Shown piece after piece: positions 6,219 to 19,941 of a DNA stretch of 64,000 bases. Within the stretch, counting starts at the first letter, position 1. Every line of letters begins with the position of its first letter. This DNA is from Actinomycetota bacterium (GTDB taxonomy: Bacteria > Actinomycetota > Thermoleophilia > Gaiellales > Gaiellaceae): positions 52,728 through 116,727 of the forward strand of contig PMOB01000019.1 in NCBI GenBank assembly GCA_003161615.1, written 5' to 3'. Under the pieces are notes generated by a model. The model was not told the origin of the DNA. It did not search any database and saw only the letters and a program-made list of their open reading frames with translations. A program made the translations under genes and the position numbers.

Positions 6219-7598
6219 CTAGCCGTTCAGCTGCTCGAAGCGGGCGGTGAAGTGGCGCAGCGCCGCGGGCTCGTACGTGATGCGCAGGCCCCGCAGCTCG
6301 TCGCGGCGCTCGGCGACCTGCGCGCACACCTCTCCGACGTAGTCGATGTGGCTCTGGGTGTATGTGCGGCGCGGGATCGCCAGGCGGACGAGATCGAGCG
6401 CCGCGGGCTCCTCCGTCCCGTCGGGGCGGCGGCCGAACATCACCGTGCCGATCTCGCAGCCGCGCACGCCGCCCGCCTCGTACAGCGCCACCGCGAGCAC
6501 CTGGCCGGGGTATTCGAGCGGCGGGATCTGCGGCAGGAGCTCGCGCGCGTCGAGGTAGATGGCGTGGCCGCCGGTCGGCCGGACGATCGGGATCCCGGCC
6601 CGGATGAGCGCGTCGCCTAGGTACTCGGTCGAGCGGATGCGGTAGCGGAGGTAGTCGTGGTCGACCGCTTCCTTCAGTCCCTGCGCGATCGCCTCGAGGT
6701 CGCGGCCGGCGAGGCCGCCGTAGGTGGGGAAGCCTTCGGTGAGGACGAGCAGGTTGCGGCAGCGCTCCGCGAGGGCGTCGTCGTTGACGGCGAGCCAGCC
6801 GCCGATGTTGGCGATCGGATCCTTCTTCGCGCTCATCGTCATCCCGTCGGCGAGCGAGGCCATCTCGCGCACGATCTCGGCGACCGGCCGGTTCTCCTGG
6901 CCGGGCTCGCGTTCGCGGATGAACCAGGCGTTCTCGGCGAACCGGCACGCGTCGAGGAAGAGCGGGACGCCGAACGCGTCGCAGACCGCGCGCACGGCGC
7001 GGAGGTTCTCGAGCGAGACGGGCTGGCCTCCGCCCGAGTTGTTCGTCACCGTGACGAAGACGGCGGGGACGGCGTCGCGGCCGCGGTCCGTGAGCAGCTG
7101 CTCGAGCGCCGCAACGTCCATGTTTCCCTTGAACGGATGCTCGAGCGATGGGACGAGCGCCTCGGGGATCGGCAGGTCGACCGCCTCCGCTCCCGTGAAC
7201 TCGACGTTCGCGCGTGTCGTGTCGAAGTGCGTGTTGTTCGGGACGACCTGGCCTGGCCCGGCGATCGCCGTGAACAGGATCTTCTCCGCGGCGCGGCCCT
7301 GGTGAGTCGGGATGACGTGCGCGAACGGGAAGAGCTCACGCACCGCGTCGAGGAAGAGGTACCAGGACGGCGAGCCCGCATAGCTCTCGTCGCCGTGCTG
7401 GATGGCGGCCCACTGGTCGCGCGACATCGCGCCTGTTCCGGAGTCGGTGAGCAGGTCGATGAGGACGTCCGTTGCGCGCAGGGCGAAAAGGTTGAAGCCG
7501 GCCTCACGGATCGCCGCGCGCCGCTCCTCGTCGGTCGTCAGCCGTAGCGGCTCGACCGAGTGGATGCGGAAGGGCTCGATGATCGTGCGGAAGGCCAT
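6219..7598 (-). CDS. tnaA: Tryptophanase (tryptophan indole-lyase)
   Basis: A PLP enzyme cleaving L-tryptophan to indole, pyruvate and ammonia. The 459 residues start with EPFRIHSVEP and contain IDLLTDSGTGAMS, THQGRAAEK, DACRFAENAWFI and the PLP lysine in MSAKKDPIANIGG. Two specificity sites fit tryptophanase rather than tyrosine phenol-lyase: FDTT (Asp, where the lyase has Thr) and GCEIG (Ile, where the lyase has Arg). The C-terminal RRTYTQSHIDY and FTARF blocks are also typical. It lies 60 bp after the formate dehydrogenase operon on the same strand. No TnaC-like leader is visible in that gap. Confidence 0.92.
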   Translation of the reverse strand: MAFRTIIEPFRIHSVEPLRLTTDEERRAAIREAGFNLFALRATDVLIDLLTDSGTGAMSRDQWAAIQHGDESYAGSPSWYLFLDAVRELFPFAHVIPTHQGRAAEKILFTAIAGPGQVVPNNTHFDTTRANVEFTGAEAVDLPIPEALVPSLEHPFKGNMDVAALEQLLTDRGRDAVPAVFVTVTNNSGGGQPVSLENLRAVRAVCDAFGVPLFLDACRFAENAWFIREREPGQENRPVAEIVREMASLADGMTMSAKKDPIANIGGWLAVNDDALAERCRNLLVLTEGFPTYGGLAGRDLEAIAQGLKEAVDHDYLRYRIRSTEYLGDALIRAGIPIVRPTGGHAIYLDARELLPQIPPLEYPGQVLAVALYEAGGVRGCEIGTVMFGRRPDGTEEPAALDLVRLAIPRRTYTQSHIDYVGEVCAQVAERRDELRGLRITYEPAALRHFTARFEQLNG

Positions 7599-7658
7599 CC
7601 CGACAGGAGACCGGACAGGCGCGGCCCGGGCATCCGGGCGTTCCCTGACGCGCGGGCG

Positions 7659-8483
7659 CTATTTGGCCCGGTTCTGCACGTACTGGTAGCCGAACCGTCC
7701 CTTGATGCAGAGGTTGCCGAGCGTGACGTCGTGGTCGTCGGGCGAGCTGACTTTGACGATGTCGCCGTCCTGCACGTGGAGCGTGAGGTTGCAGCCAACT
7801 CCGCAGTAGGGGCACACGGTGTCGACCTCGGTCTGCTCCTCTTCGCGCCACTCCCCGGCCTCGCGCAGCTCGTGCTCGCTCGTCGCCATCAGCGCGCCGG
7901 TCGGGCAGACGGCGATGCAGTTGCCGCAGTAGACGCACGCCGACTCGGGCAGCGTCACGTCGAACTCGGTGGAGATGCGCGCCTCGAAGCCGCGTCCGGC
8001 GACGGCGATCGCGAACGTGTTCTGGTGGTCGACTCCGCAGGCCTCGACGCACTTGTAACAGAGGATGCACTTGGAGTAATCCCGGACGTAGAGCTCGTTG
8101 TCGACCTTGATCGGCTGCGCGACGGTGCGGGTGTCCGGGCCGAAACGCTGCGGCTCCGCGTCGTAGCGCTCGCTGTAGGCGAGCGCCTCCGGCGCGGTGG
8201 AGAGGTCGGTGGCCGAGCCGAGCAGCTCGAGGACGAGGCGGCGGCTCGTGCGGACGCGCTCGGAGTCGGTGTGGACGACCATCCCGTCCTCGACCTGGCG
8301 CGAGCAGGCGGGCACGAGCGTCCGCGCTCCCTCGAGCTCGACGACGCAGACGCGGCAGACGTTGACCGGGGTGAGCGTGTCGGCGTAGCAGAGCGTCGGC
8401 GTGTCGATCCCCATCGCGCGCGCCGCGTCGAGGATCGTGCCGCCGTCGACCTCGCTCGTGACTCCGTCGATTGTGATCTTCAC
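7659..8483 (-). CDS. Formate dehydrogenase iron-sulfur subunit carrying the detached Fe4S4 domain of FdhA
   Basis: A 274-residue electron-transfer subunit. The N-terminus is a plant-type 2Fe-2S domain (C-x11-C-x2-C, then a Cys in LVPAC). Two ferredoxin clusters follow (CILCYKCVEAC and CVYCGNCIAVCP). The C-terminal ~55 residues start CPYCGVGC and end GRFGYQYVQNR, which is the first Fe4S4 subdomain of molybdenum formate dehydrogenases, normally fused to the catalytic chain. The chain stops exactly where the catalytic gene's product begins. The GTG at 8483 overlaps the upstream stop (GTGA). It should link the Mo site to the flavin subunit. Confidence 0.9.
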   Translation of the reverse strand: MKITIDGVTSEVDGGTILDAARAMGIDTPTLCYADTLTPVNVCRVCVVELEGARTLVPACSRQVEDGMVVHTDSERVRTSRRLVLELLGSATDLSTAPEALAYSERYDAEPQRFGPDTRTVAQPIKVDNELYVRDYSKCILCYKCVEACGVDHQNTFAIAVAGRGFEARISTEFDVTLPESACVYCGNCIAVCPTGALMATSEHELREAGEWREEEQTEVDTVCPYCGVGCNLTLHVQDGDIVKVSSPDDHDVTLGNLCIKGRFGYQYVQNRAK

Positions 8484-10039
8484 GCGAGCACTCCGAGATT
8501 GTGGATGGCGGAGTCGACGGCGCTCGCCGCGGTCTGGCCGAGCCCGCAGATCGAGGCGTCGCGCATCACTTGCGACAGGTCGGCGAGGACGGCGAGCTCG
8601 TCTCCCTGCGTCCGGCCGGAGGCGAGCCGGTGGAGCGCTTCCTCCTGGCGGACGGTGCCGATGCGGCAGGGGACGCACTGGCCGCACGACTCGTCGCGGA
8701 AGAACTCGGCGATCCGGAGGACGGCCTCGACGAGATCGGCCTGCTCGCCGAAGACCATCACGACGCCCGAGCCGAGGGTCACGCCGGCTTCGCGGGCGCC
8801 ATCGAACGAGAGCGGCAGGTCGAGCTGGTCCGGCCGCAGGAACGAGCCGGCGGCGCCGCCGAGCAGGACGGCCTTCGGCGGCTCGGCTCCCGCCAGGTCG
8901 AGCAGCTCGCCGAGCGGTGTGCCGAGCTCGAGCTCGTAGAGGCCCGGCCGAGCGACGTGGCCGGAGACGCAGAAGAGCCGCGTCTCGCGCGTGTCTCCGA
9001 GGAGTATCGGAGGCACGTTGACGAGCGTCTCGACGTTGTTGACGACGGTCGGCTTCCCGTAGAGGCCGACCTCGACCGGGAAAGGCGGCTTGTTGCGCGG
9101 CTCGCCGCGGTAGCCCTCGATCGACTGGAAGAGCGCCGTCTCCTCGCCGCACACGTAGGCGCCCGCGCCGATCCGCAGCTCGATGTCGAGACCGCTCGCC
9201 TCGATCGCCTCCCGCATCCGCTCCTGCGCGAGCGGATACTCGGCGCGGATGTAGAGGTAACCCTTCTCGCAGCCGGTCGCGAACATCGCGATCGCCATCC
9301 CCTCGACGAGCGCCTGCGGATCCTGCTCCATGATCACGCGGTCTTTGAAGGTCCCCGGCTCCGACTCGTCGGCGTTGCAGACGAGGTAGTGCGGGAGGGC
9401 GGGCTGGCGCGCGACGGCTTCCCACTTCGCGCCGGTCGGGAAGGCGGCGCCGCCGCGGCCGAGGAGCTTCGAGTCGGCGATCGCGTGGATCACGGCGTCC
9501 TGTCCCATCTCCTTCGCGCGCGCGAGCGCGGCGAATTCGCCGTAGGGCTCGCCGCTGACGATCCGCTTCAGCAGCCGGTCGCCGTGGACGGGCAGGCGCT
9601 GCTCGGGCAGCTGGATCTCGCGCGGCTCCTCGCCCGCGATCGTGCGCAGCGAGGCGGGCGCGAGCTCGCAGAGGCCGAGGCACGGTGACGGGACGGCGCC
9701 CTCGGGAACCTTCGCGCCGGCGAGGCGGCAGGCGAGGTCGGTGCAGACGTGGAGAACTTCCGGCGGGCGCTCTTCAAGCGCGAGCATCGCGTAGAAGGTC
9801 GCGACGCCGTACGCGTCGGCGGGCGGCACGTCGAGGCGGCGCGACGCGTAGCCGAGCGCGCCCGGCGTCACCCAGCCGGCGCGCTGCTGCGCGGCGCGGA
9901 GCGCGGGCAGAAGGAGATGCCGCCGCGTCCGGTCACGCCTCGCAACCCGGTTTCCGTCATCCGGCTCGACGCCGACGACGGCGTCGATTGCCGCGCGCTC
10001 GGCGTCGGTCGGCTCCGCTTCGAGCAGCTTCAGGTCCAC
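8480..10039 (-). CDS. fdhB: NAD-linked formate dehydrogenase flavin subunit (NuoE-NuoF fusion)
   Basis: The diaphorase subunit passing electrons from formate to NAD. Residues ~1-160 are NuoE-like with 2Fe-2S ligands C-x4-C (CTDLAC) and C-x3-C (CLGLC). The rest is NuoF-like, with the FMN loop GRGGAAFPTGAKW, the NAD-binding stretch GAYVCGEETALFQSIEG and the 4Fe-4S site ESCGQCVPCR with a later Cys. The 519-residue length fits FdsB-type fusions. The GTG at 10039 overlaps the stop of the catalytic gene (TAGTG), and its own stop overlaps the next gene, so the three genes form one coupled operon. Confidence 0.93.
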   Translation of the reverse strand: MDLKLLEAEPTDAERAAIDAVVGVEPDDGNRVARRDRTRRHLLLPALRAAQQRAGWVTPGALGYASRRLDVPPADAYGVATFYAMLALEERPPEVLHVCTDLACRLAGAKVPEGAVPSPCLGLCELAPASLRTIAGEEPREIQLPEQRLPVHGDRLLKRIVSGEPYGEFAALARAKEMGQDAVIHAIADSKLLGRGGAAFPTGAKWEAVARQPALPHYLVCNADESEPGTFKDRVIMEQDPQALVEGMAIAMFATGCEKGYLYIRAEYPLAQERMREAIEASGLDIELRIGAGAYVCGEETALFQSIEGYRGEPRNKPPFPVEVGLYGKPTVVNNVETLVNVPPILLGDTRETRLFCVSGHVARPGLYELELGTPLGELLDLAGAEPPKAVLLGGAAGSFLRPDQLDLPLSFDGAREAGVTLGSGVVMVFGEQADLVEAVLRIAEFFRDESCGQCVPCRIGTVRQEEALHRLASGRTQGDELAVLADLSQVMRDASICGLGQTAASAVDSAIHNLGVLA

Positions 10040-11922
10040 TAGACCGGCTCCAGCCGGATCGCGGTGGCCTTGAACTCGGCCGTGCCCGACTGCGGGTCGG
10101 TGGCGTCGATCGTCAGGACGTTGGTCGCCACCTGGTCGGGGAAGTGGAGATTCATGAACGCGAGGCCGGGCCGCAGCGTCGCGTCGTAGCGCGCGGGCGC
10201 CTCGACCGAGCCGCGCCGGGAGACGACCCGGACGCGCGCGCCGTCGGCAATCCCGTAGCGCTCGCCGTCTGCGGGCGCGAGCAGGATCGCCTCGCCGTCG
10301 ACGTGGAGCGGCGACGAGAAGCGTCCCGACTGAACGCCGGTGTTGAACGACTCGAGCCGCCGGCCGGTCGTGAGGCGGAGCGGGAAGTCGTCGTCGAGCT
10401 TGTCGACCGGCGGGTCGTGCTCGACGGGCATGAACGGCGCGCGCTCGGAGACCACGTCGTCCCAGAGGCGGCCGTGGAGGAAGAGCGTGCCGGGATCCTC
10501 ATCGTCGCCGCACGGCCACTGGATGCCGCCCAGCTCCTCGAGCCGCGCGTAGCTCATGCCGGCGTGCATCGGCGAGAGGGAGCGCAGCTCTTCCCAGACG
10601 TCCGCGGCGCGGGGCAAGCCGAGCTCGTGGCCGAGCCGCCGGGCGAGGTCGTAGACGATCTCGATGTCGTCGCGCGCGCCGGCGGGCGGCTCGACGGCCT
10701 TTCGCACGCGCTGCACGCGCCGCTCGCTCGAGGTGACGGTGCCCTCGACCTCGCCGAGCGTGGCGGCAGCGGGAAGGACGACGTCGGCGAGTTCCGCGGT
10801 GCGGGTGAGGAAGAGGTCCTGCACGACGAGATGATCGAGGCCTTCGAGCAGCCGCTCGGCGCGCCGCTGGTCCGCCTCCCCCTGGGCCGGGTTCTCGCCG
10901 ACGACGTAGACGGCGGTGAGCTCTCCCTCCTCCATCGCCTCGAACATGTCGGTCAGGTGGAGCCCCGGCTGCGACGGGACCGCCGTTCCCCAGGCCGCCT
11001 CGAACGGCGCGCGGATCGCGTCGTCGGTGAGCTCCTGGAAGCCGGGCAGCTTGTTGGGGATCGCGCCCATGTCTCCCCCGCCCTGGACGTTGTTCTGGCC
11101 GCGCAACGGCTGCAGCCCGGAGCCCCACTTCCCGACCTTGCCCGTGAGGAGGGCGAGGTTGATCAGGGCGAAGACGTTGTCGACGGCGTTGTGGTGCTCG
11201 GTGATCCCGAGCGTCCAGCAGAGCTGCACGTGCTCGGCCGTCCCGTAGGCGTGGGCAAGCTCGCGGATCGCGTCGGCCGGAACTCCCGTCACGCGCGCCG
11301 CCTCGGCGAGCGTCCACGGCTCGACCGAGGCGCGGTAGGCGTCGAAGCCCGTCGTCGCGCGCGCGATGAACTCCTCGTCGTGGAGCCCCGCCACGATGAT
11401 CTCCCGCGCGACCGCGTTCGCGAGCGGGATGTCGGTACCGACGTCGAGCCCGAGCCAGAGGTCGGCCCACTGCGCCGAAGGTGTGCGGCGCGGGTCGACG
11501 ACGACGAGGCGCGCACCGCGATGCACGGCCTTGAGGACGTGGTGGAAGAAGATCGGGTGCGCCTCGCGCGCGTTCGAGCCCCAGAGGACGATCAGGTCCG
11601 CGCCGCGAGTCTCCTCGTAGGAGCTCGTCCCGCCACCCGCACCGAACACCGTCGCCAGACCGACGACGCTAGGCGCGTGTCAGGTTCGGTTGCAGCTGTC
11701 GACGTTGTTCGTGCCGAGCGCGACCCGGGCGAACTTCTGCGTTGCGAAGTTCAGCTCGTTGGTCGCCTTCGAGCAGGAGAAGACGCCGGTCAGGGCGCCG
11801 TCGTCCAGTGCTCTCCGGAAGCCCGCTGCCGCGCGGTCGAGCGCCTCGTCCCAGCTCGCCTCGCGTAGTTGCCCGTCCTCGCGCACGAGTGGCGTCGTCA
11901 GCCTTGCTCGGATCAACGCCAT
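10039..11922 (-). CDS. fdhA: Selenocysteine-containing formate dehydrogenase catalytic subunit
   Basis: The molybdenum or tungsten bis-MGD subunit oxidising formate to CO2, or running in reverse. Reading through the UGA at 11682-11680 gives 627 residues with selenocysteine at 81: before it DSCNRT, after it HAPSVVGLATVFGAGGG, matching the Sec/Cys-His active-site pair of formate dehydrogenases. Downstream motifs include LWGSNAREAHPIFF, GRGGNN-like RGQNNVQGGGDMG and the C-terminal MopB domain starting near LRLTTGRRLESFNTG. The N-terminal Fe4S4 subdomain is missing and is encoded by the third gene. The ATG at 11922 has only a weak ribosome-binding site. Confidence 0.92.
11651..11682 (-). promoter_or_regulatory. 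Bacterial SECIS element and UGA selenocysteine codon of fdhA
   Basis: The UGA codon is at 11682-11680. In the message, 18 nt after it comes an apical GGUCU loop closed by a 6-bp stem GUCGUC/GGCGAC (plus-strand 11662-11667 and 11651-11656). From memory, the E. coli fdhF SECIS has the same GGUCU loop at the same 18-nt distance from its UGA. This is the element SelB reads to insert selenocysteine. Confidence 0.9.
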
Positions 11923-11973
11923 GCGCAGGACCCTACAAGGGGACGGGTGCGACCTCGGCAGACTCGGGCTGCG

Positions 11974-13047
11974 CTACTCCGAGCGACCGGAGTCCTCGTC
12001 GCCGCCGGGCTCCGTCTCTACCTCGACCAAGCCGTCGTCGATCGTGTCTTCGTCCGCTGCGAGCTCGGGTCGCGGCGCAGCCGGACGGAGATGCGCGTTC
12101 GGCCACATGTAGTGGATCGAACGAACGCCGACGACCAGCAGGACGAGAAGGATCGCCGTTTCGAGGACGAGGTCGACGCCGGTGGAGTCGGGCGGATAGC
12201 TCCCGACGAGCAGCGAGCGGACGCCCCAGATACCGAGGACGAGCCCGCCGACGGTCGGGATGATCTGGTTGAACGGCCGGAAGATGACGCCGTAGATGGC
12301 CGAGATCACGATCAGGAGGATCAGGTCGATGGTCAGGACGCGCAGGTACAGCGGCCGTGAGAACCGGAGCGCGACGACGTTGTCGTAGACGACTCCGCTG
12401 CGGTCGTAGTCCGACGCCTGGAGGATCCGTGGCTGGGCCATCGTGAGCCGAGGGACGCCGTCCTCGACGGTGTATGCCAGCGCCCGTCCGGCAGCGCGCA
12501 CGGTGGACGGGACGTACTTGCCGCCCGGTGCGGCCCGCGAGAACGCGACGCCGAGGAGAAGCGTGTAGTGGTCGAACGGATAGTCGGTGAGGTTGCCGTC
12601 GATGGGGAGCGTGACCTCTTGCTCGATCTCGCCGGAGTCCTTGGGTAGGTCGATCGTCTGCGACGGCGGGGCGCCGAGGGCTCCGGTCGGCTCCGCGTGG
12701 ACGGAGAAGAGCTGGATGCGCTCGCGCGCCGGGCAGCTGGCTGCGGGACAGTTGTGGAACCCCGTGACGCGGACGGTGAGCTTCCGGGCCGTCTCGTCGA
12801 TCTTGAACGCGCTGAGGTTGAGCTTCGTCCACTCCCCCTGCAGATTGGTCGGCCGCATGACGACCCAGGTACGGCCGACGACCGGCCCGTGGAGGACCGA
12901 GATGACGCTCACGATCGCGAGCGGGGCGAGGGCAAAGGCGAGCCCGACGGCGGCCACGGCCGCGACGATCCCGGCGCGATAGCCGTGGCGTGTCGCCGGC
13001 AGGGTGCCTTCTGCCGGCGGCTGGGCGTGCTCGAGACTGGCGGCCAC
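11974..13047 (-). CDS. Four-segment membrane protein, DUF4436-like
   Basis: A 357-residue membrane protein with one N-terminal segment (about residues 24-50), a beta-rich extracytosolic domain of about 180 residues containing two Cys (FHNCPAASC) and a NLTDYPFDHYTLLLG motif, then three clustered segments near the C-terminus and an acidic tail. The architecture and YPFD motif resemble mycobacterial DUF4436 proteins; the family assignment is from pattern only. The GTG start is at 13047. It ends 51 bp before fdhA on the same strand, so co-transcription is possible, but no functional link is shown. Confidence 0.65.
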   Translation of the reverse strand: MAASLEHAQPPAEGTLPATRHGYRAGIVAAVAAVGLAFALAPLAIVSVISVLHGPVVGRTWVVMRPTNLQGEWTKLNLSAFKIDETARKLTVRVTGFHNCPAASCPARERIQLFSVHAEPTGALGAPPSQTIDLPKDSGEIEQEVTLPIDGNLTDYPFDHYTLLLGVAFSRAAPGGKYVPSTVRAAGRALAYTVEDGVPRLTMAQPRILQASDYDRSGVVYDNVVALRFSRPLYLRVLTIDLILLIVISAIYGVIFRPFNQIIPTVGGLVLGIWGVRSLLVGSYPPDSTGVDLVLETAILLVLLVVGVRSIHYMWPNAHLRPAAPRPELAADEDTIDDGLVEVETEPGGDEDSGRSE

Positions 13048-13134: not shown

Positions 13135-16100
13135 TTGGCTACGGGCGCACACAGCAGGAGTGATCGCAGGCGCCCGTGGCAGCTTGCTGCCTCGGCCTGC
13201 GCCGGCGTCGCGGCTATTGCCTCGCTCTCGGCCGCAGGCGCGGCTCCGGTCGGCGCGGCGACTCAGGCGCCGACAGCGAGCCTCACCGCGCGGGCGGCTT
13301 CGGCGGCGACGATCGCCGGCGGCGCGGCCGAGATCCTCGTCCAGCTGTCGAACGTCGCCGGTCAGGGCGCAGGCGCGCTGGCGAGCCCGTCCGTTGCGAT
13401 CGCCGCTCCGCCCGGCTACCGCTTCACCGGCTCGACGAATCTCAGCCAGGTACCCGGCTTCGGCGCCGGCGACCGGATCAGCGGCCGTTGGAGCTGCCAC
13501 GCCGCCGCCGGCGGCGCGTCGTGTTCCTTCGCCGGCTCGGTCAAGCCGGGACATTCCCTGCCGCTGCTCGTGGGCTTCACCGCTCCGGCTACCGCGCGCG
13601 TCGGCAGCCGCGCCGTCTTCCACGTCACGGGAACGGGCTCGATCGCCGGCCACCAAGCGCTCGCCACGATGCGGATCGTCCGCGGCCCCGGCTACCCCGT
13701 GCTCTATGCGGAGACGACGACCGGGACGCAGGTGCGGAGCGGAGGTGGCGGCGTCGAGACCGTCGAACTGCTGAACACGGGGCCGGTCGCGGCGAGCGGC
13801 GCCCAGCTCTCCAATCTGCTTCCCGCTGCGGTGATCGGCACGTGGACAGCCGCCGGGACAGGCTGGAGCTGCGCCGGAGCGCAAGGCTCGCCGCCGTCCT
13901 GCTCGAGCAGCCAGACGATCCAGCCGGGCGGCGTCTCGGCGCCGCTGCGGCTCACGTTCCGCCTCGACCCGGCGAAGGTGGCCGCGCTCCACCTGAAGCC
14001 GGGCGGGAAGACGGTGGTCGAGAAGTGGTCGGTGCGCGTCGTCGCCGACGGTTGGCCGCCCTCGCTCGCCGTCAGCTCGCCGGCCGAGCTCGCGGTGGCG
14101 CCGCCTCCCGCCGCGCAGCTGCGCGTGACCGCCGTCGCGTCCGGCGGCCGGCAGGAGCTGATGCCGGGGACGAACAAGACCATCGTCGCCCGAATCTCGA
14201 ACGTCGGCATCGGAGCGACCGAGGGCCGCCTCTCGCTCGGCGGGGCTTTCCCGGCCGGGCTCAGCCTCCTTCGTGCGGAGGCCCCGGGCAACTGGCAGTG
14301 CTTCGACAAGGCCGTTCTCGCCGGCGGCAGCCAGGCATTTGCGTGTTATCCGACGTCACCACGCGAGCTCGGTGCCGGAAAGCGCCTCTCTGTACGGCTC
14401 GTCTTCGCCGTCGCGCCCGGCGCGATCCCGGGCCGGCGCCAGCTCGACCTCGGCGCGCACAGCTCGAACGAGACGCAGGCGCGAGATCCGAAGGCGGACG
14501 TCTCTCTGCCGCTTCTGATCCTCGAGCCGAACCGGGGCTTCCCGGCGCTGAGCCTCCTACGCCCGGGGCCGCGCGGCGCCGTACCGGCGACCGACGGCCG
14601 CCCGCTCCATCTCGTCTCCGGCCGCCCGTCCAGCGAGCGGCTCGACGTCCGGAACGCGGGCGGTGCGCCGATCGCGGCTGGGAGCCGGCTCGAGTTGACG
14701 CAGAACCTCGGCGCCGGCGCCACCGTCTCGTCGGTGAGCGCTCCCCCCGGCTGGTCGTGCTCCGGCACGCGCGCGCTTGTCTGCACGTACACGTTCGGCG
14801 CGGAGCTCGCGCCGGCCGACTCGCTCGAGGGGCCAACCGTCTCCCTGCTCGCCCGCACGCCCACGACGAAGACCGAGGACTGGCGCGCCTCCGTTCATCT
14901 GGTCAGCGGCGCCCCGCACGTCTCCGAGCTGCCAGTCCTCGTCACGGTCTCGCGCGGCGCGGCGCGGCTCGTCCCGAACTGGACGAATGGCCGCGTCCCG
15001 ACGGCAGGTGGCACCGGCAGCTTCGGGCTCGCCGTCCGGAACACAGGCAACCTCACCACCGGCCGCCCGGTCGTCGTCGGGCTCCGGCTGCCGCGGGGTG
15101 TCCACCTCGTCCGGCTCGACGCCACCGGCTGGAGCTGCGCGTCGACCCGCAGTTCGGCTCGCTGCACCGCCGCCCCGCTCGCGCCAGGCGCACGCTCGCC
15201 GCGCCTGCACGTCGTCGCCGGCTTCGCCCCGCGCACAGGCCTGAGGACGCTCGCACTGCAGGCGCGCGCCTACGTCGAGGGAGGCACTCCGGCCCACGCT
15301 CGCGCGGCGACCATCCAGGTCGAGCCGCGCCACGCGCTGTACGCGCGGATCAACGAGCCGGACAAGGTCTACTTCGCCGACCAGCCGATCGTTCGCGCCG
15401 GCCAGCCGCTTCTCCCGACCCCTATCACGCTCGAAGGCGACGGCAGCGGCGGTAGCGGCCTCGGTCTCACCTACCGCTGGACGCAGGTCGCCGGCCCGCC
15501 GGTTGCCTGGCTCGGCCCGGCAACCCAGGCGGACGTCCAATTCCAGGCGCCGCAGGTCACCCGCTCCACGATTCTGAAGTTCGCGCTCACCGTCTCCGAC
15601 CGCAGCGCCACCTCGAGCGCGGGAGTGCGGATCCGGGTCGTGCCGCTGCAGAGCGCCACGGCGGGGTTCACGATCCGCCAGCCGCATCCGCAGAAGGAGA
15701 AGCCCGGCGGGCCGCCGCGCGAGCGGCGGCGCCTGCCGAAGCCGGCGCGGAAGCTCCGCAACGTCACGCCCGCGCCGCCCGGCACCCAGATCCACACGGC
15801 GGCGCGGCCGCACCTCACGCCGGGCGCCGCCCCGCCGGCGATCTTCTGCCAGCTCGTCCAGGACGCCGAGAACGCGGCCAACGGCTCGTTCAGCGCGTCG
15901 GTCGGCGGCGTCTCGTTCGGCTTCGCCGATGTCCAGCTGACCGGCAGCGGCTGCAACGCGAACACGCAGTTCAGCTTCTCCGGCGCCACCTTCTCTGTCG
16001 GCAGCTCCCTCGACGCGAGCGGCGTCGACGGGACAGTGACGGAGAACGGGATCACCCTCAGCGCAGGAACGCTTCGCGGTCCGTCCGCCTGGCACTCCCC

Positions 16101-19100
16101 GACCTTCACACTCGCCGGCGGCGGCCTTTCGGTTCCGTTCGGCGGCGCGGAGGTTTCCCTCGCCGGCACGATCACCGGGGCCGGAATCGCCTTCGTCCCG
16201 CTGCCGAGCGGCTGGACCGGCAGCACGAAGATCGCGTTCACCGCCGGCGGCGGCGACACGACGAGCGTCTCGGCCACGGTCACGGCGACCGGGCCAAAGC
16301 GCGACGCGAGCCCGAACTCGCCCGCGCCGAGCCTCAATCTGCAGGGCTCGATCGCGAGCGACGGCACCTTCTCGCTCACCCTCGCGATCCGGCAACTCGT
16401 CCAGCTCGCCGGCTCGCCAATCGATGTCGCGGGCAAGGTCAGCAGGAGCCAGCCCGGCGGACCGCTCGCGATCTCCGTCAGCGGCACGCTGACGCAGCCG
16501 ATCACGATCGTCCCCGGCCTCCAGATCGCGACCTTGTCGGTCAAGGCCGAGCCGACCGACACCGCGCTCAACCTCAAGGGCAGCGGCACGGTCGAGCTGT
16601 CGCCCCCAACCGGGAAGATCGGTGTCGAGGTCGGCTTCTCCTACGCCGACCCGGCCAACTGGTCGCTGACCGCGAAAGGAACCGGCGACGCCGTCTGGGA
16701 GCCGCTGCCCGGCCTAAAGATCAGTGGCAAGAACTTCAGCGGCGCGATCGTCGCCCGCGACGACAGCTACGCGCTCAGCCTCGAGGCGAAGTTCCCCGGC
16801 ACCTGGAAACCGCACTCCAGCGTGACCGTCTCGAACCTCGCCCTCCGCCTCTCGAACACGTGCCCCGACACCGGCGCGCCGTGCCCGCGCGACGCCTCGA
16901 TCTTCTTCACCGCCCGCGGCGACGTGACCTTCGCGCTGCCGGCGATCGGCGACGTCTCGACGAGCCTCGCCGGGACGCTCGCCCTGCCGAGCGGCGACTT
17001 CAGCGTCGAGGCGAAGCTCAACCGCGGCCTCTCGCTCGGCGCCGGGATCTCGATCGACGCCGCCCGCGTCCTGATCTCCTCCGGTATGCCGAAGCCGGCG
17101 GAGGAGCCGTCGACCGAGAGCGCCGACCCAGGCGGCTACAACGTCGACCTCTCCGGCCGGGTCACGCTCCCCGCGCTCGGGACGCTCCCGACCGTCCACG
17201 CCGCCTTCTCGTCGAGCGGCTGGGCGATCGCCGTCCCGCTCGGCAGCTTCTCGCTGCCCGGCGCGAGCGGCGACGGCTCGCGACTGGCTGCGACGGTTCT
17301 CGGCTGGGCGAGCTACCCGACCAAGCTCAACGTCGTCGACCCGCTGACCAAGGCGGTCACGAAGATCGAGCTACCGGCGGACGGCTTCAAGCTGACCGGC
17401 GACTTCGCCACCCCGCCCTGGCTGCGCCGGATGCTCCGGCTCGGCAGCGACATCAACGGCCGCGCCACAGGCGTCTTCAACCCCGCCGCCGACACGTACG
17501 CGCTTCGCATGGAGTTCGCGATCCCGGGCAAGCCGTACCTCTACGGCAGCTCGACCTCGGCCGCGAGCGTCGCGCTGAAGTCGACGTACTTCGAGATCGC
17601 CCGCCAGGCCGGCGACTTCACGGTCGGGCTCGGCGGCACGGCCGGGATGACCATCTCCTCCTCGAAGATCGATCTGAGCGTCGGCCTTTCCTACGCAACG
17701 CTCTCCCAGACCGTCGCCGGGACGCTCTCGTTCACGAGCCCGGAGGGCTGGCGGGACGCGTTCGGAGCGCGTGACCTGACGCTCTACGACCTCGCCGTCG
17801 CGTTCTCCTACAACATCCCGAGCTCGACGCCCGGCCTCGGCTTCGGAGCGCGCGCAGTCCTCCCGGGCGTCGTACGCCAGAACCTCGGCGTCACCAACGG
17901 CGCGAAGACGACGGTCGTGGCGAACCTCTCGCTCGACCATCCGTGCCTCGGGATCCAGGTCGCCGATCCGACCAACAACAGCCAGACCGTCCTGAGCATC
18001 GGCTCCGGCGCGCTCACCGCAACCGTGTTCGATCTCGCGATCGCGCCATCCGGCTGCACTGTCGGGCAATTCCGGTACGCAGCGGGCCTCTCCCTCAACT
18101 TCAACGGGAAGGTCGCCGGCATCCCCGTCGTCATCAAGGCGACGCTCGGCCTCGAGCCGTTCAAGTTCGACGCGACGGCCGACATCGGCGAGATCCCCGC
18201 CGGCGGCCTCACGATCAAGCAGACCCACCTCGAGGTCTCGCTCGCCCAGGACAAGGTCCGAATCGCGTTCAACGGCGGCGTCGAGGTGCTCGGGACGAAC
18301 GTCACCGTCGCGGGAAAGATCAGCAAGAACGGCAGCGTCGTCGTCTCGGACTTCACCGGCACGCTCGATCGCCTCGCGATCGGGGACGCGATCACCGCGA
18401 CCGGGCTCGCCGTCACGATCCACACGGAGTCCGGCGGCGCCTCGAACGTCCTCAACTTCTCCGCCAAGGGACGGATCGCGCTCTTCGGCGCGACCGCCGA
18501 CTGCGACTTCCGGCTCTCGATCGCCAACGGGCAGCTCAACGCCGCGAAAGCGGAAGTCACGGCGAAGGTCGTCGTCGGAGGACTGACCCTCGACGGCAAG
18601 TTCAAGGTCGACTACTCGAAGACGGCTCCGCTCTCGGTCGACGCGAACGTCGCGGCGACCTATCGCGGCTACAAGCTCGCCGACGCGACCGTCGTCGCCC
18701 GACCCAGCTACCTCCAGGTCGCCGCCGGCATCTCCGTCAACGGCGTCTTCAGCGCCCGGCTCGAAGGCGCCGCGTACTACGGCGCCGTGCCCGCGGGGAC
18801 GAACATCACGTTGCCCGGCGGAACCAAGGTCGCCGCCAAGACAGGCGACTGGTACATGGCCGCCAAGGACGTCTCGCTCACGGTCGGCGGCTTCAGCGGC
18901 ACCACCGGCCTCTGGCTCGGCCAGGCGGGAGGAATCGTCCGGCTCCGCGTCAACGCCGCCGTCCAGATCCTCGGCACGAGCGGCTCGAACACCGTGGACG
19001 TCGCAGGCTCCGTCGACGACACCGGCGACTTCTCACTGACGGGCAATGCACACCTCGACCTCGCAGGCTTCAAGCCCAAGGTCGCCGTGACGATCGCGAG

Positions 19101-19941
19101 GAACGGCACCGCCGTCTCGGTCTCGGGAGCAGCGGACGTCTCGATCGGCGGCGGCTCGGCCGCACTCAACGGCTCCTTCCTATACGACGGCGGCAAGTTC
19201 CTCTTCCGGCTCGACGGCACCGCGACGATCAACGCAGGCGGCTACACGCTCGTCGACTCGAAGGTCAAGTTCTCGAACTTCCCGGGCGAGGCCGGCCTCT
19301 ACGCCGAGGTGCACTTCAACGCCGGCGACACCGTCCATATCGACGGCACCCTCAACGTCAACGCCGAGGGAGGCTTCTACCTCGGCGCGAACGCGAACAT
19401 CGACCTACGCGCCTTCACGGTGAACGGGAACGTCGAGTTCTACTCGGGCAGGAACACCTTCTGCCACGACACCTTCATCTGGTTCTTCTGGTTCACGATC
19501 AACGTCGGGCAGACCTGCGAGACGGCCGACTATCCGACGACGCTCACGGCGACGGCGACCGTCGAGTCGGCCGGCTTCTCCTTCGGCGTCTCGATGCGGA
19601 TCAACGGCGACGGCACCTTCTACGCCACCGCGCGTACGCCCATCTATGCGGACACGGTCGTCTCGACGGGCACCGTCGACCTGTGGGCCGTGCGCGGCTA
19701 CGCCCAGTTCGCGTACCACATGAGCCTCACCGTCCAGTCCCACTACCCGCAGGTCTCGGTGGAGGGGAGCGGCACGGCGAGCATCAAGTACCAGCACTGG
19801 GACGTCGTCTGGCCGCCGTGGGATTCCGGCTGGTCGGACTGGAAGACGGCCGCGACGATCTCGGTCTCCATCCGGACGAACCCGTTCGGAGCCTGCGCCT
19901 ACGTCGACGTCTTCGGCTACGACGTGGGCGGCTGCATCTAG
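13135..19941 (+). CDS. Giant secreted beta-rich repeat protein (2268 residues)
   Basis: Function unknown. A signal peptide (Arg-rich n-region, then an Ala-rich core to about residue 42) is followed by five modules of about 130-150 residues, most with a GWxC...C pair and DUF11/CARDB-like NxG patterns (to ~735). A PKD/Ig-like domain (~745-840) contains LTYRWTQVAGPP. A Pro/Arg/Lys-rich linker (~845-900) leads to about 1360 residues of repeating short beta strands rich in Gly, Ser and Thr. No LPxTG or C-terminal membrane anchor is visible. The TTG at 13135 is the only start before the signal peptide, as an in-frame stop lies just upstream, so the exact start is uncertain. Confidence 0.85.
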   Translation: MATGAHSRSDRRRPWQLAASACAGVAAIASLSAAGAAPVGAATQAPTASLTARAASAATIAGGAAEILVQLSNVAGQGAGALASPSVAIAAPPGYRFTGSTNLSQVPGFGAGDRISGRWSCHAAAGGASCSFAGSVKPGHSLPLLVGFTAPATARVGSRAVFHVTGTGSIAGHQALATMRIVRGPGYPVLYAETTTGTQVRSGGGGVETVELLNTGPVAASGAQLSNLLPAAVIGTWTAAGTGWSCAGAQGSPPSCSSSQTIQPGGVSAPLRLTFRLDPAKVAALHLKPGGKTVVEKWSVRVVADGWPPSLAVSSPAELAVAPPPAAQLRVTAVASGGRQELMPGTNKTIVARISNVGIGATEGRLSLGGAFPAGLSLLRAEAPGNWQCFDKAVLAGGSQAFACYPTSPRELGAGKRLSVRLVFAVAPGAIPGRRQLDLGAHSSNETQARDPKADVSLPLLILEPNRGFPALSLLRPGPRGAVPATDGRPLHLVSGRPSSERLDVRNAGGAPIAAGSRLELTQNLGAGATVSSVSAPPGWSCSGTRALVCTYTFGAELAPADSLEGPTVSLLARTPTTKTEDWRASVHLVSGAPHVSELPVLVTVSRGAARLVPNWTNGRVPTAGGTGSFGLAVRNTGNLTTGRPVVVGLRLPRGVHLVRLDATGWSCASTRSSARCTAAPLAPGARSPRLHVVAGFAPRTGLRTLALQARAYVEGGTPAHARAATIQVEPRHALYARINEPDKVYFADQPIVRAGQPLLPTPITLEGDGSGGSGLGLTYRWTQVAGPPVAWLGPATQADVQFQAPQVTRSTILKFALTVSDRSATSSAGVRIRVVPLQSATAGFTIRQPHPQKEKPGGPPRERRRLPKPARKLRNVTPAPPGTQIHTAARPHLTPGAAPPAIFCQLVQDAENAANGSFSASVGGVSFGFADVQLTGSGCNANTQFSFSGATFSVGSSLDASGVDGTVTENGITLSAGTLRGPSAWHSPTFTLAGGGLSVPFGGAEVSLAGTITGAGIAFVPLPSGWTGSTKIAFTAGGGDTTSVSATVTATGPKRDASPNSPAPSLNLQGSIASDGTFSLTLAIRQLVQLAGSPIDVAGKVSRSQPGGPLAISVSGTLTQPITIVPGLQIATLSVKAEPTDTALNLKGSGTVELSPPTGKIGVEVGFSYADPANWSLTAKGTGDAVWEPLPGLKISGKNFSGAIVARDDSYALSLEAKFPGTWKPHSSVTVSNLALRLSNTCPDTGAPCPRDASIFFTARGDVTFALPAIGDVSTSLAGTLALPSGDFSVEAKLNRGLSLGAGISIDAARVLISSGMPKPAEEPSTESADPGGYNVDLSGRVTLPALGTLPTVHAAFSSSGWAIAVPLGSFSLPGASGDGSRLAATVLGWASYPTKLNVVDPLTKAVTKIELPADGFKLTGDFATPPWLRRMLRLGSDINGRATGVFNPAADTYALRMEFAIPGKPYLYGSSTSAASVALKSTYFEIARQAGDFTVGLGGTAGMTISSSKIDLSVGLSYATLSQTVAGTLSFTSPEGWRDAFGARDLTLYDLAVAFSYNIPSSTPGLGFGARAVLPGVVRQNLGVTNGAKTTVVANLSLDHPCLGIQVADPTNNSQTVLSIGSGALTATVFDLAIAPSGCTVGQFRYAAGLSLNFNGKVAGIPVVIKATLGLEPFKFDATADIGEIPAGGLTIKQTHLEVSLAQDKVRIAFNGGVEVLGTNVTVAGKISKNGSVVVSDFTGTLDRLAIGDAITATGLAVTIHTESGGASNVLNFSAKGRIALFGATADCDFRLSIANGQLNAAKAEVTAKVVVGGLTLDGKFKVDYSKTAPLSVDANVAATYRGYKLADATVVARPSYLQVAAGISVNGVFSARLEGAAYYGAVPAGTNITLPGGTKVAAKTGDWYMAAKDVSLTVGGFSGTTGLWLGQAGGIVRLRVNAAVQILGTSGSNTVDVAGSVDDTGDFSLTGNAHLDLAGFKPKVAVTIARNGTAVSVSGAADVSIGGGSAALNGSFLYDGGKFLFRLDGTATINAGGYTLVDSKVKFSNFPGEAGLYAEVHFNAGDTVHIDGTLNVNAEGGFYLGANANIDLRAFTVNGNVEFYSGRNTFCHDTFIWFFWFTINVGQTCETADYPTTLTATATVESAGFSFGVSMRINGDGTFYATARTPIYADTVVSTGTVDLWAVRGYAQFAYHMSLTVQSHYPQVSVEGSGTASIKYQHWDVVWPPWDSGWSDWKTAATISVSIRTNPFGACAYVDVFGYDVGGCI

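Follow-up and report, generated by a model that had tools for sequence, protein, structure and literature searches.

A putative selenocysteine-containing formate dehydrogenase with a divided catalytic subunit and a rotated gene order in Thermoleophilia and other bacteria

The operon and its in-frame UGA

We analysed a stretch of 64,000 nucleotides (nt), hereafter the window, from an Actinomycetota bacterium of the family Gaiellaceae, class Thermoleophilia (assembly GCA_003161615.1, contig PMOB01000019.1, positions 52,728 to 116,727 of the forward strand). Three adjoining genes on its minus strand, numbered 1 to 3 in reading order (Table 1), would together encode a formate dehydrogenase (FDH) containing selenocysteine (Sec). 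Gene 1 specifies the molybdopterin part of the catalytic (alpha) subunit and contains an in-frame UGA, gene 2 a fused flavin and iron-sulfur protein, and gene 3 the remaining iron-sulfur part of alpha. Homologues that share this arrangement are called here the split clade, and those with both parts of alpha in one chain are called fused; single loci and genomes are given numbers with L and G, respectively.

Table 1. Features of the putative FDH operon (window coordinates)
Feature	Position	Strand	Remarks
Gene 1, putative C-terminal half of FDH alpha (molybdopterin / bis-MGD part)	10039..11922	-	627 aa, Sec at residue 81
UGA codon taken as selenocysteine	11680..11682	-	TGA at the aligned codon in 30/30 rows of the codon alignment
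Putative SECIS hairpin, 7 possible pairs, 6 of them conserved; loop GGUCU at 11657-11661	11650..11668	-	Pairing, homologue segments, folding
Gene 2, NuoE-NuoF fusion (FMN/NADH-binding part and [2Fe-2S] thioredoxin-like domain)	8480..10039	-	GTG start, one-base overlap with the TAG stop of gene 1
Gene 3, putative N-terminal half of FDH alpha: [2Fe-2S], two [4Fe-4S], Molybdop_Fe4S4 with the Lys44-equivalent Lys	7659..8483	-	GTG start, 4-base overlap with the stop of gene 2
bis-MGD, bis-molybdopterin guanine dinucleotide; SECIS, selenocysteine insertion sequence; FMN, flavin mononucleotide.

When TGA was translated as Sec, the frame of gene 1 ran through 627 residues, and its only UGA lies in the motif NRT-U-HAPSVVG. 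An initial annotation, made from the letters of the window, had placed this UGA exactly at the Sec/Cys site of the FDH family, which the motif and the homologues bear out. It had also predicted that routine gene calling would produce two false genes, and plain open reading frame (ORF) calling returned exactly these, 10039..11649 (536 aa, GTG start) and 11680..11922 (80 aa, ATG start). Homologues with a real stop and a separate start, which it had named as contrary evidence, gave no sign of existing: exactly one in-frame TGA was found in 32 of the 33 best matches of the class (the window's own among them), and the exception, G301, lies at the start of a contig and begins past the site. The aligned codon specifies Cys in ten members of the split clade. 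The UGA thus lies where homologues have Sec or Cys, as is expected of a bacterial selenoprotein, and this actinobacterium very probably reads the apparent stop as selenocysteine.

Two observations on the reading frames may be added. At L083, L084 and L168, tblastn gave two pieces of gene 1 in different frames, through sequencing error or recent decay. An antisense ORF of 727 residues (9685-11868, plus strand) spans most of the FDH gene, probably as a high-GC effect; the antisense frames of relatives likewise stay open and are a trap.

The hairpin after the UGA and the selenium machinery

Counting the U of the UGA as 1, positions 15-21 can pair with positions 27-33 (seven pairs) and enclose the loop GGUCU at 22-26, which is 18 nt from the UGA. 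The initial annotation had described six of these pairs (16-21 with 27-32) and a GGUCU loop at the spacing of Escherichia coli fdhF, and both descriptions held; the seventh, outermost pair is present in the window but forms in just 17 of the 34 distinct split-clade segments. The GGUCU of fdhF, the gene of E. coli FDH-H, lies at the same distance from its UGA, as read from a 48-mer of fdhF that matched 5368 of 5426 E. coli genomes and fell in annotated fdhF in the two rows examined. The bacterial SECIS (bSECIS) model is described as a loop of 3-9 nt on an upper stem of 4-16 bp, with G in the first two loop positions, 16-37 nt from the UGA and with a minimum free energy of at most -7.5 (PMC13188914). 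Here the loop has five nucleotides beginning with GG, the stem has seven pairs (six conserved), the separation is 18 nt and the folding energy of the isolated hairpin is -9.2 kcal/mol. Rfam searched at gathering scores gave no match in the window; we know of no general bacterial SECIS family in Rfam.

Since the loop encodes conserved residues, the constraint imposed by the protein had to be removed. We therefore compared codon use in 30 sequences including the window's, namely the 34 loci of the class minus L066, L072, L083 and L084, which are incomplete or frameshifted (in rows L067 and L074 an extra TGA before the true start was translated, which affects the first two columns only). Over 244 columns in which a degenerate amino acid is almost invariant, the commonest codon had a mean share of 0.76; for the seven codons S V V G L A T (Sec+4 to Sec+10) the value was 0.966, the highest of 111 testable stretches.

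Homologues with Cys at the site served as the control for the hairpin. In the segments after the codon, GGUCU was present in all 74 split-clade Sec segments (34 distinct) versus one of ten split-clade Cys segments, and the inner five pairs were complete in 32 of the 34 distinct Sec segments versus none of the ten Cys segments; the label "split" was assigned here by clade, and it includes rows whose stretch ends before gene 3. Among the other homologues, the inner five pairs were complete in 46/50 distinct Sec segments versus 0/35 Cys segments, and GGUCU occurred in 48/57 versus 5/35, being missing in nine Sec segments; this group, labelled "fused", includes L161 (a short FdhF-like chain), L186 and others without a shown fusion. 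Over six pairs, the share of cells that can pair was 0.97 in 84 distinct Sec segments versus 0.58 in 45 Cys segments. Pair 18-30 is G-C instead of C-G in five distinct split-clade segments (L213, L214, L217, L219 and L227), GTC...GAC having become GTG...CAC, and both changes are synonymous. In a second group of Sec-FDHs (L085, L087, L088, L127, L128 and L130), GGCCUGG replaces GGUCU after the UGA, with another predicted hairpin.

The initial annotation had further implied that the host possesses selA, selB, selC and selD, and had regarded the absence of selB and tRNA-Sec as decisive against Sec. A profile search of the host genome, assembled to 2.32 Mb in 35 contigs with a completeness of 95.4%, found all four, with selA at 499.8 bits, selB at 331 bits (genome scan) and selD at 324.7 bits. 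The tRNA-Sec has the anticodon TCA (UCA) according to both the family search and ARAGORN, which of the four tRNA-Sec family loci called one a tRNA-Sec (L001) and the others, L002 (also over the cut-off), L004 and L008, Ser or Leu tRNAs. Both selA and selB are on the contig of the tRNA-Sec, less than 6 kb from it, and the host SelB has the SelB-wing_3 domain, which binds SECIS. The fdhD gene is also present.

The same annotation had called Sec use sparse in actinobacteria, and for this class that did not stand, since 191 of the 399 genomes of the class have a selA match (190 over the cut-off). Actinobacteria were named among three selenoprotein-rich phyla (PMC1794560). In the class, selA was found in 30 of the 33 genomes with a near-full gene 1 match of at least 62%, in 32 of which the TGA is visible, versus 161 of the 366 others (Fisher p 7e-8, relatedness ignored); the 366 include four genomes with gene 1 fragments or a frameshifted copy (G257, G217, G233 and G079), all with selA. 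Most of the selenoprotein count of the phylum mentioned above reportedly belongs to Symbiobacterium, since moved to another phylum. In G358 (L069, G358:C68:64464-68908), selA lies about 1.4 kb from a split Sec-FDH operon.

A catalytic subunit probably in two pieces

By Pfam, gene 1 contains Molybdopterin and Molydop_binding only, and no domain of the Molybdop_Fe4S4 type was found in it. Such a domain forms the C-terminal end of gene 3 (E 4.4e-21). What the initial annotation had called the catalytic gene is thus the molybdopterin part with Sec; the remainder of the catalytic subunit is the third gene, at 7659-8483. The FDH alpha model TIGR01591 is the best NCBIfam match of gene 1 (E 1.1e-189), its positions 52-671 lying in gene 1 and positions 1-50 in gene 3 (51.9 bits), 1.5 kb downstream. 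Likewise, gene 3 matches residues 27-305 of FdsA from Rhodobacter capsulatus (6tg9_A) and gene 1 residues 308-931, the C-terminal domain of gene 3 corresponding to about FdsA 253-305, and gene 1 matches residues 57-688 of E. coli FdhF (1aa6_A). In the fused relatives L085, L087, L088 and L089, both matches share one frame, with two codons from the end of the gene 3 match to the start of the gene 1 match, and this adjacency indicates that the subunit was cut at one domain junction. The cut in the putative FDH alpha thus falls exactly at the boundary of the proximal-cluster domain with the molybdopterin domains.

The 16 cluster Cys of gene 3 and the Lys of its LC-x-KGR motif, residue 261 in the window's gene 3, were invariant in all 59 sequences that scored above 250 bits among the 72 loci examined. 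The corresponding Lys44 of E. coli FDH-H, for which a primer table gives the context LCLKG (PMC12176258), precedes FdhF residue 57, where the gene 1 match begins. The same source describes Lys44 as strictly conserved. In FDH-H the cluster, Lys44 and Sec are all on one chain, whereas here the equivalent of Lys44 is on gene 3.

Gene 2 matches Complex1_51K, NADH_4Fe-4S, SLBB and 2Fe-2S_thioredx in Pfam, which supplies the NuoF-like FMN/NADH part and NuoE-like [2Fe-2S] part of NAD+-dependent FDHs. Enzymes of the FdsABG and MeFDH1 type have a single alpha chain; here there are two genes with the NuoEF gene between them. By Z, the top structural match of the AlphaFold model of gene 1 (mean predicted local distance difference test, pLDDT, 84.6) was FDH1 of Methylorubrum extorquens (MeFDH1; PDB 7vw6, 8j83; rows within 1 are tied): residues 4-627 aligned with 341-981 of 8j83_A (Z 42.3, root-mean-square deviation (rmsd) 2.6, 615 residues), and residues 2-627 with FdhF 54-688 (1fdi; Z 39.4, rmsd 2.8, 619 residues). 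The alpha subunit of MeFDH1 has three [4Fe-4S] and one [2Fe-2S], and its beta subunit FMN, [4Fe-4S] and [2Fe-2S] (PMC10869683); by sequence, genes 1-3 have the same kinds of cofactor sites, and gene 2 aligns over 35-512 with the single beta chain 7e5z_B. MeFDH1 alpha is described as one chain that uses Cys (PMC13397495), in contrast to the two-chain alpha with Sec and the rotated gene order of the present locus. FdsA of R. capsulatus FdsABG (PDB 6tg9) is likewise one chain, and its extra Cys-rich stretch DCLTCAANGDC is absent from gene 3, with no such Cys columns in the 59 gene 3 sequences. In that organism, NuoE and NuoF are separate genes. E. coli FDH-H has Sec followed by His, as in gene 1, and is not known to have a NuoEF partner. 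Also close are the class's own fused Sec-FDHs (L085-L088, L111-L130), which share about 42-46% identity with gene 1 and most of which have GGUCU (L085, L087, L088, L127, L128 and L130 being those without it); in these gene 3 and gene 1 are joined head to tail with no gene between, and gene 2 lies upstream in L087 and L088. In L099 (G076:C106), one contig carries a Sec-FDH and a Cys-FDH paralogue at a distance of about 3.3 kb, a natural pair for Sec/Cys comparison.

Taken together, the locus most probably (at about 0.88) encodes a soluble, NAD+-dependent Mo- or W-bis-MGD FDH, a three-subunit selenoprotein with a split catalytic subunit and a rotated gene order. From what was computed directly (the UGA position, the hairpin and its conservation, the machinery, domain content, gene order with its conservation, and the single origin on the tree), we infer Sec insertion, docking, the electron path, formate as substrate, NAD+ as acceptor and the duplication route discussed below. 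SelB with Sec-tRNA-Sec would bind the hairpin just past the UGA and place Sec, as a ligand of the metal, at position 81 of the gene 1 product. The gene 3 product, with its [2Fe-2S], two [4Fe-4S], Mo-proximal [4Fe-4S] and the essential Lys, would dock on the gene 1 product and so rebuild a normal catalytic subunit. Electrons would pass from formate to Mo/W-Sec, to the proximal cluster on the other chain, through the remaining clusters to the FMN of gene 2, and then to NAD+. On domain content and fold matches, the same chemistry is expected, with the proximal cluster and Lys supplied in trans by gene 3.

Other explanations can be set against this. The UGA might be a true stop, in a decayed gene or between two real genes of 80 and 536 aa, just as the ORF caller divides them; the identity with homologues that continues past the UGA, TGA in every row of the codon alignment and Cys in ten clade members, the synonymous constraint and conserved pairing 3' of the codon, and a full set of Sec machinery make this scarcely credible, and a pseudogene or true stop was rejected. 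That the enzyme is another molybdopterin oxidoreductase, such as an assimilatory nitrate reductase, would agree with the matches of gene 1 to NasC (390.9 bits) and NasA (372.9 bits) and with its TIGR01591 score, which is under the cut-off, and nitrate reductases and arsenite oxidases are near in fold (Z 37-41), so that fold alone cannot name the substrate. TIGR01591, however, outscores the next model by about 240 bits, each of the ten top sequence matches in the PDB is an FDH or a chain of FDH type (two of them YjgC, that is, Bacillus subtilis ForCE1), Sec followed by His is typical of FDH, and the NuoEF partner is that of NAD+-dependent FDHs. We consider a different substrate class highly improbable, and the nitrate reductase reading was rejected on the TIGR01591 margin, the PDB matches and the NuoEF partner.

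Gene 3 could also be an independent electron-transfer protein of the HoxU/HydA kind beside a self-sufficient oxidoreductase encoded by gene 1, the two being neighbours and not halves. Its top NCBIfam match by E-value is the N-terminal part of group A6 [FeFe] hydrogenase (2.6e-50), and electron-transfer subunits often adjoin FDH genes. Against this, the last domain of gene 3 is the one that holds the proximal cluster in the molybdopterin family, the break coincides with FdsA 305/308, the cluster Cys and Lys are invariant while gene 1 is without such a domain in Pfam, and one gene order is kept in all 61 loci long enough to show it. Independence of gene 3 is therefore very unlikely in our opinion, and two halves of one FDH alpha remain the preferred reading.

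Several observations weigh against the FDH assignment, the Sec decoding or the division of alpha. Gene 1 alone scores 631.8 on TIGR01591, under the curated cut-off of 666.25, and the sum of genes 1 and 3, 683.7, is plain arithmetic and no valid score. Gene 3 alone models poorly in AlphaFold (mean pLDDT 57.3), which leaves its docking onto gene 1 without structural support. In 40 nt of window sequence, a hairpin shifted by three bases is stabler than the proposed one (-13.6 versus -10.6), while in the register slid by three fewer cells are paired, 0.69 versus 0.97 in all Sec segments and 0.85 versus 0.99 in the clade. Cells with both bases changed numbered 51 in Sec segments versus a shuffle mean of 20, and 44 versus 29 in Cys segments, none of 1000 shuffles reaching either value; since the Cys segments exceed their shuffles too, this count cannot separate structure from relatedness. 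There was no selA in three of the 33 genomes (G305, G185 and G231), which are fragmented into about 560, 520 and 500 contigs. The frame changes within gene 1 in three split-clade loci (L083, L084 and L168). Finally, the tree described below was made with FastTree only, and the node of its 80-row split clade has a support of 76 under midpoint rooting.

Distribution, origin and meaning of the rotated operon

The order gene 1 - gene 2 - gene 3 was found in 30 of 34 class loci and in 31 of 35 named loci of the clade, and the remaining eight stretches end before gene 3, so that all 61 loci long enough have the rotated order (two, L055 and L163, show it in part only, and at least one record, L131 = L052, is in both sets and counted twice). 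L186 (59%), in whose stretch only 240 bases follow gene 1, is outside the named clade set. In the usual order, gene 2 precedes the fused gene 3 and gene 1; it is upstream in 15 of the 16 named fused loci in which gene 2 was matched, and downstream in L181. An assembly artefact as the cause of the split was rejected, the same order being present in 61 loci from many separate assemblies. By record title, the carriers among the best 80 of at least 590 relatives belong to Actinomycetota, Acidobacteriota, Gemmatimonadota, Planctomycetota, Bacillota and Armatimonadota, many being metagenome-assembled genomes (MAGs) whose binning was taken as deposited; near-full gene 1 matches without a stop (G733, G702, G516 and G546) and G564, which starts after the site, are outside the analysed set. 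Actinomycetospora lemnae DW7H6 (L150) is a named carrier with Sec, and Streptomyces parvulus JCM 4068 (L149) and S. iakyrus NRRL ISP-5482 (L144) are named carriers with Cys. Gene 3 was also found in viral contigs (four distant loci, 32-33% identity) and in 173 plasmid records, all below 60% identity.

In a FastTree tree of gene 1 homologues from 170 of the 177 loci with matches (L066, L083, L084, L099, L160, L163 and L168 omitted), one branch with a support of 99 separates 56 split rows from 78 fused rows. The split clade comprises 80 rows, 70 with Sec and ten with Cys, of which 56 are shown to be split, none is fused and 24 are without an assigned state. The tree thus places the origin of the split, rotated arrangement at a single event, as judged from gene 1 sequences. 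One change accounts for the Cys rows, all of which are in Streptomyces, Nocardiopsis, Nonomuraea, Sphaerisporangium, Amycolatopsis and Umezawaea. Since the distant FdhF-like chains L161 and L166 carry the cluster domain fused, the fission is probably the derived state. The rotation is best explained if the operon was duplicated in tandem and its outer parts were then lost: once gene 2 and gene 3 of the first copy and gene 1 of the last were gone, exactly gene 1 - gene 2 - gene 3 would be left, with a new start and a new stop arising at one domain junction.

The junctions of the three genes are tight. A possible start of gene 2 lies from -16 to +9 nt of the gene 1 stop in all 32 class loci, and a start with the 4-base overlap of gene 2 is open to gene 3 in 24 of 30 (start positions in the class were assigned mechanically). 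Outside the class set, genes 1 and 2 are within 10 nt in 28 of 36 Sec loci of the clade with a start found and in seven of ten Cys loci (L155 and L159 have no nearby start, and L181 is counted though outside the clade), and genes 2 and 3 in 19 of 20 and nine of ten, respectively. Tight junctions did not prove specific to Sec members, the Cys loci being tight too. One possible explanation of the rearrangement is that, without Sec insertion at codon 81 of gene 1, genes 2 and 3 are silenced as well. The gene with Sec, at its codon 81, stands at the head of the operon, and the downstream starts overlap or abut the upstream stops, while fused homologues have Sec far downstream in a much longer frame. 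However, tight spacing is ordinary in compact operons, and the close spacing kept in the Cys members is not tied to Sec. Because the Cys members keep the putative coupling, we regard it as possible but doubtful that Sec insertion gates synthesis of the whole enzyme and that the rearrangement is a selenium checkpoint, inherited by a later Cys lineage.

As for the neighbourhood of the operon, a Beta_elim_lyase gene resembling tryptophanase or tyrosine phenol-lyase (6219-7598, minus strand) follows gene 3 on the same strand after about 60 nt. An ORF of 2268 residues at 13135-19941 (plus strand), possibly a large surface or secreted protein, has only a weak PKD-like match (PF22352). A promoter and terminator consensus scan of 7400-12200 found none, other promoter types being outside the scan.

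Sec-containing FDHs with an fdhF-like SECIS are already known, and Sec in actinobacterial FDHs has been published: a Streptomyces with a Sec-containing FDH-O and selABCD has been announced (PMC4498112), and a tRNA-Sec with the anticodon CUA was described in Geodermatophilaceae (PMC5330540). At L168, a Geodermatophilaceae MAG, the Sec site is TGA and not TAG, although the family is known for the anticodon CUA. In the titles and abstract openings of the open-licence literature searched, no split or permuted FDH alpha was named, which does not imply its absence from print. On the sequence evidence, the fissioned, order-rotated FDH alpha is the unusual part of the present enzyme, and it is common to many bacteria. 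At such loci gene callers can err twice, at the UGA and at the fission. If the checkpoint were true, a ribosome without selenium would halt at codon 81, and synthesis of both the flavin and the iron-sulfur subunit would fail. In FDH-H, five substitutions of Lys44 are reported to leave less than 0.23% of the activity, and its change to Arg about 7% (PMC12176258). Thus, the Lys on which FDH-H activity depends would now come from a second protein, and the split clade may offer a natural two-piece FDH for work on assembly and engineering.

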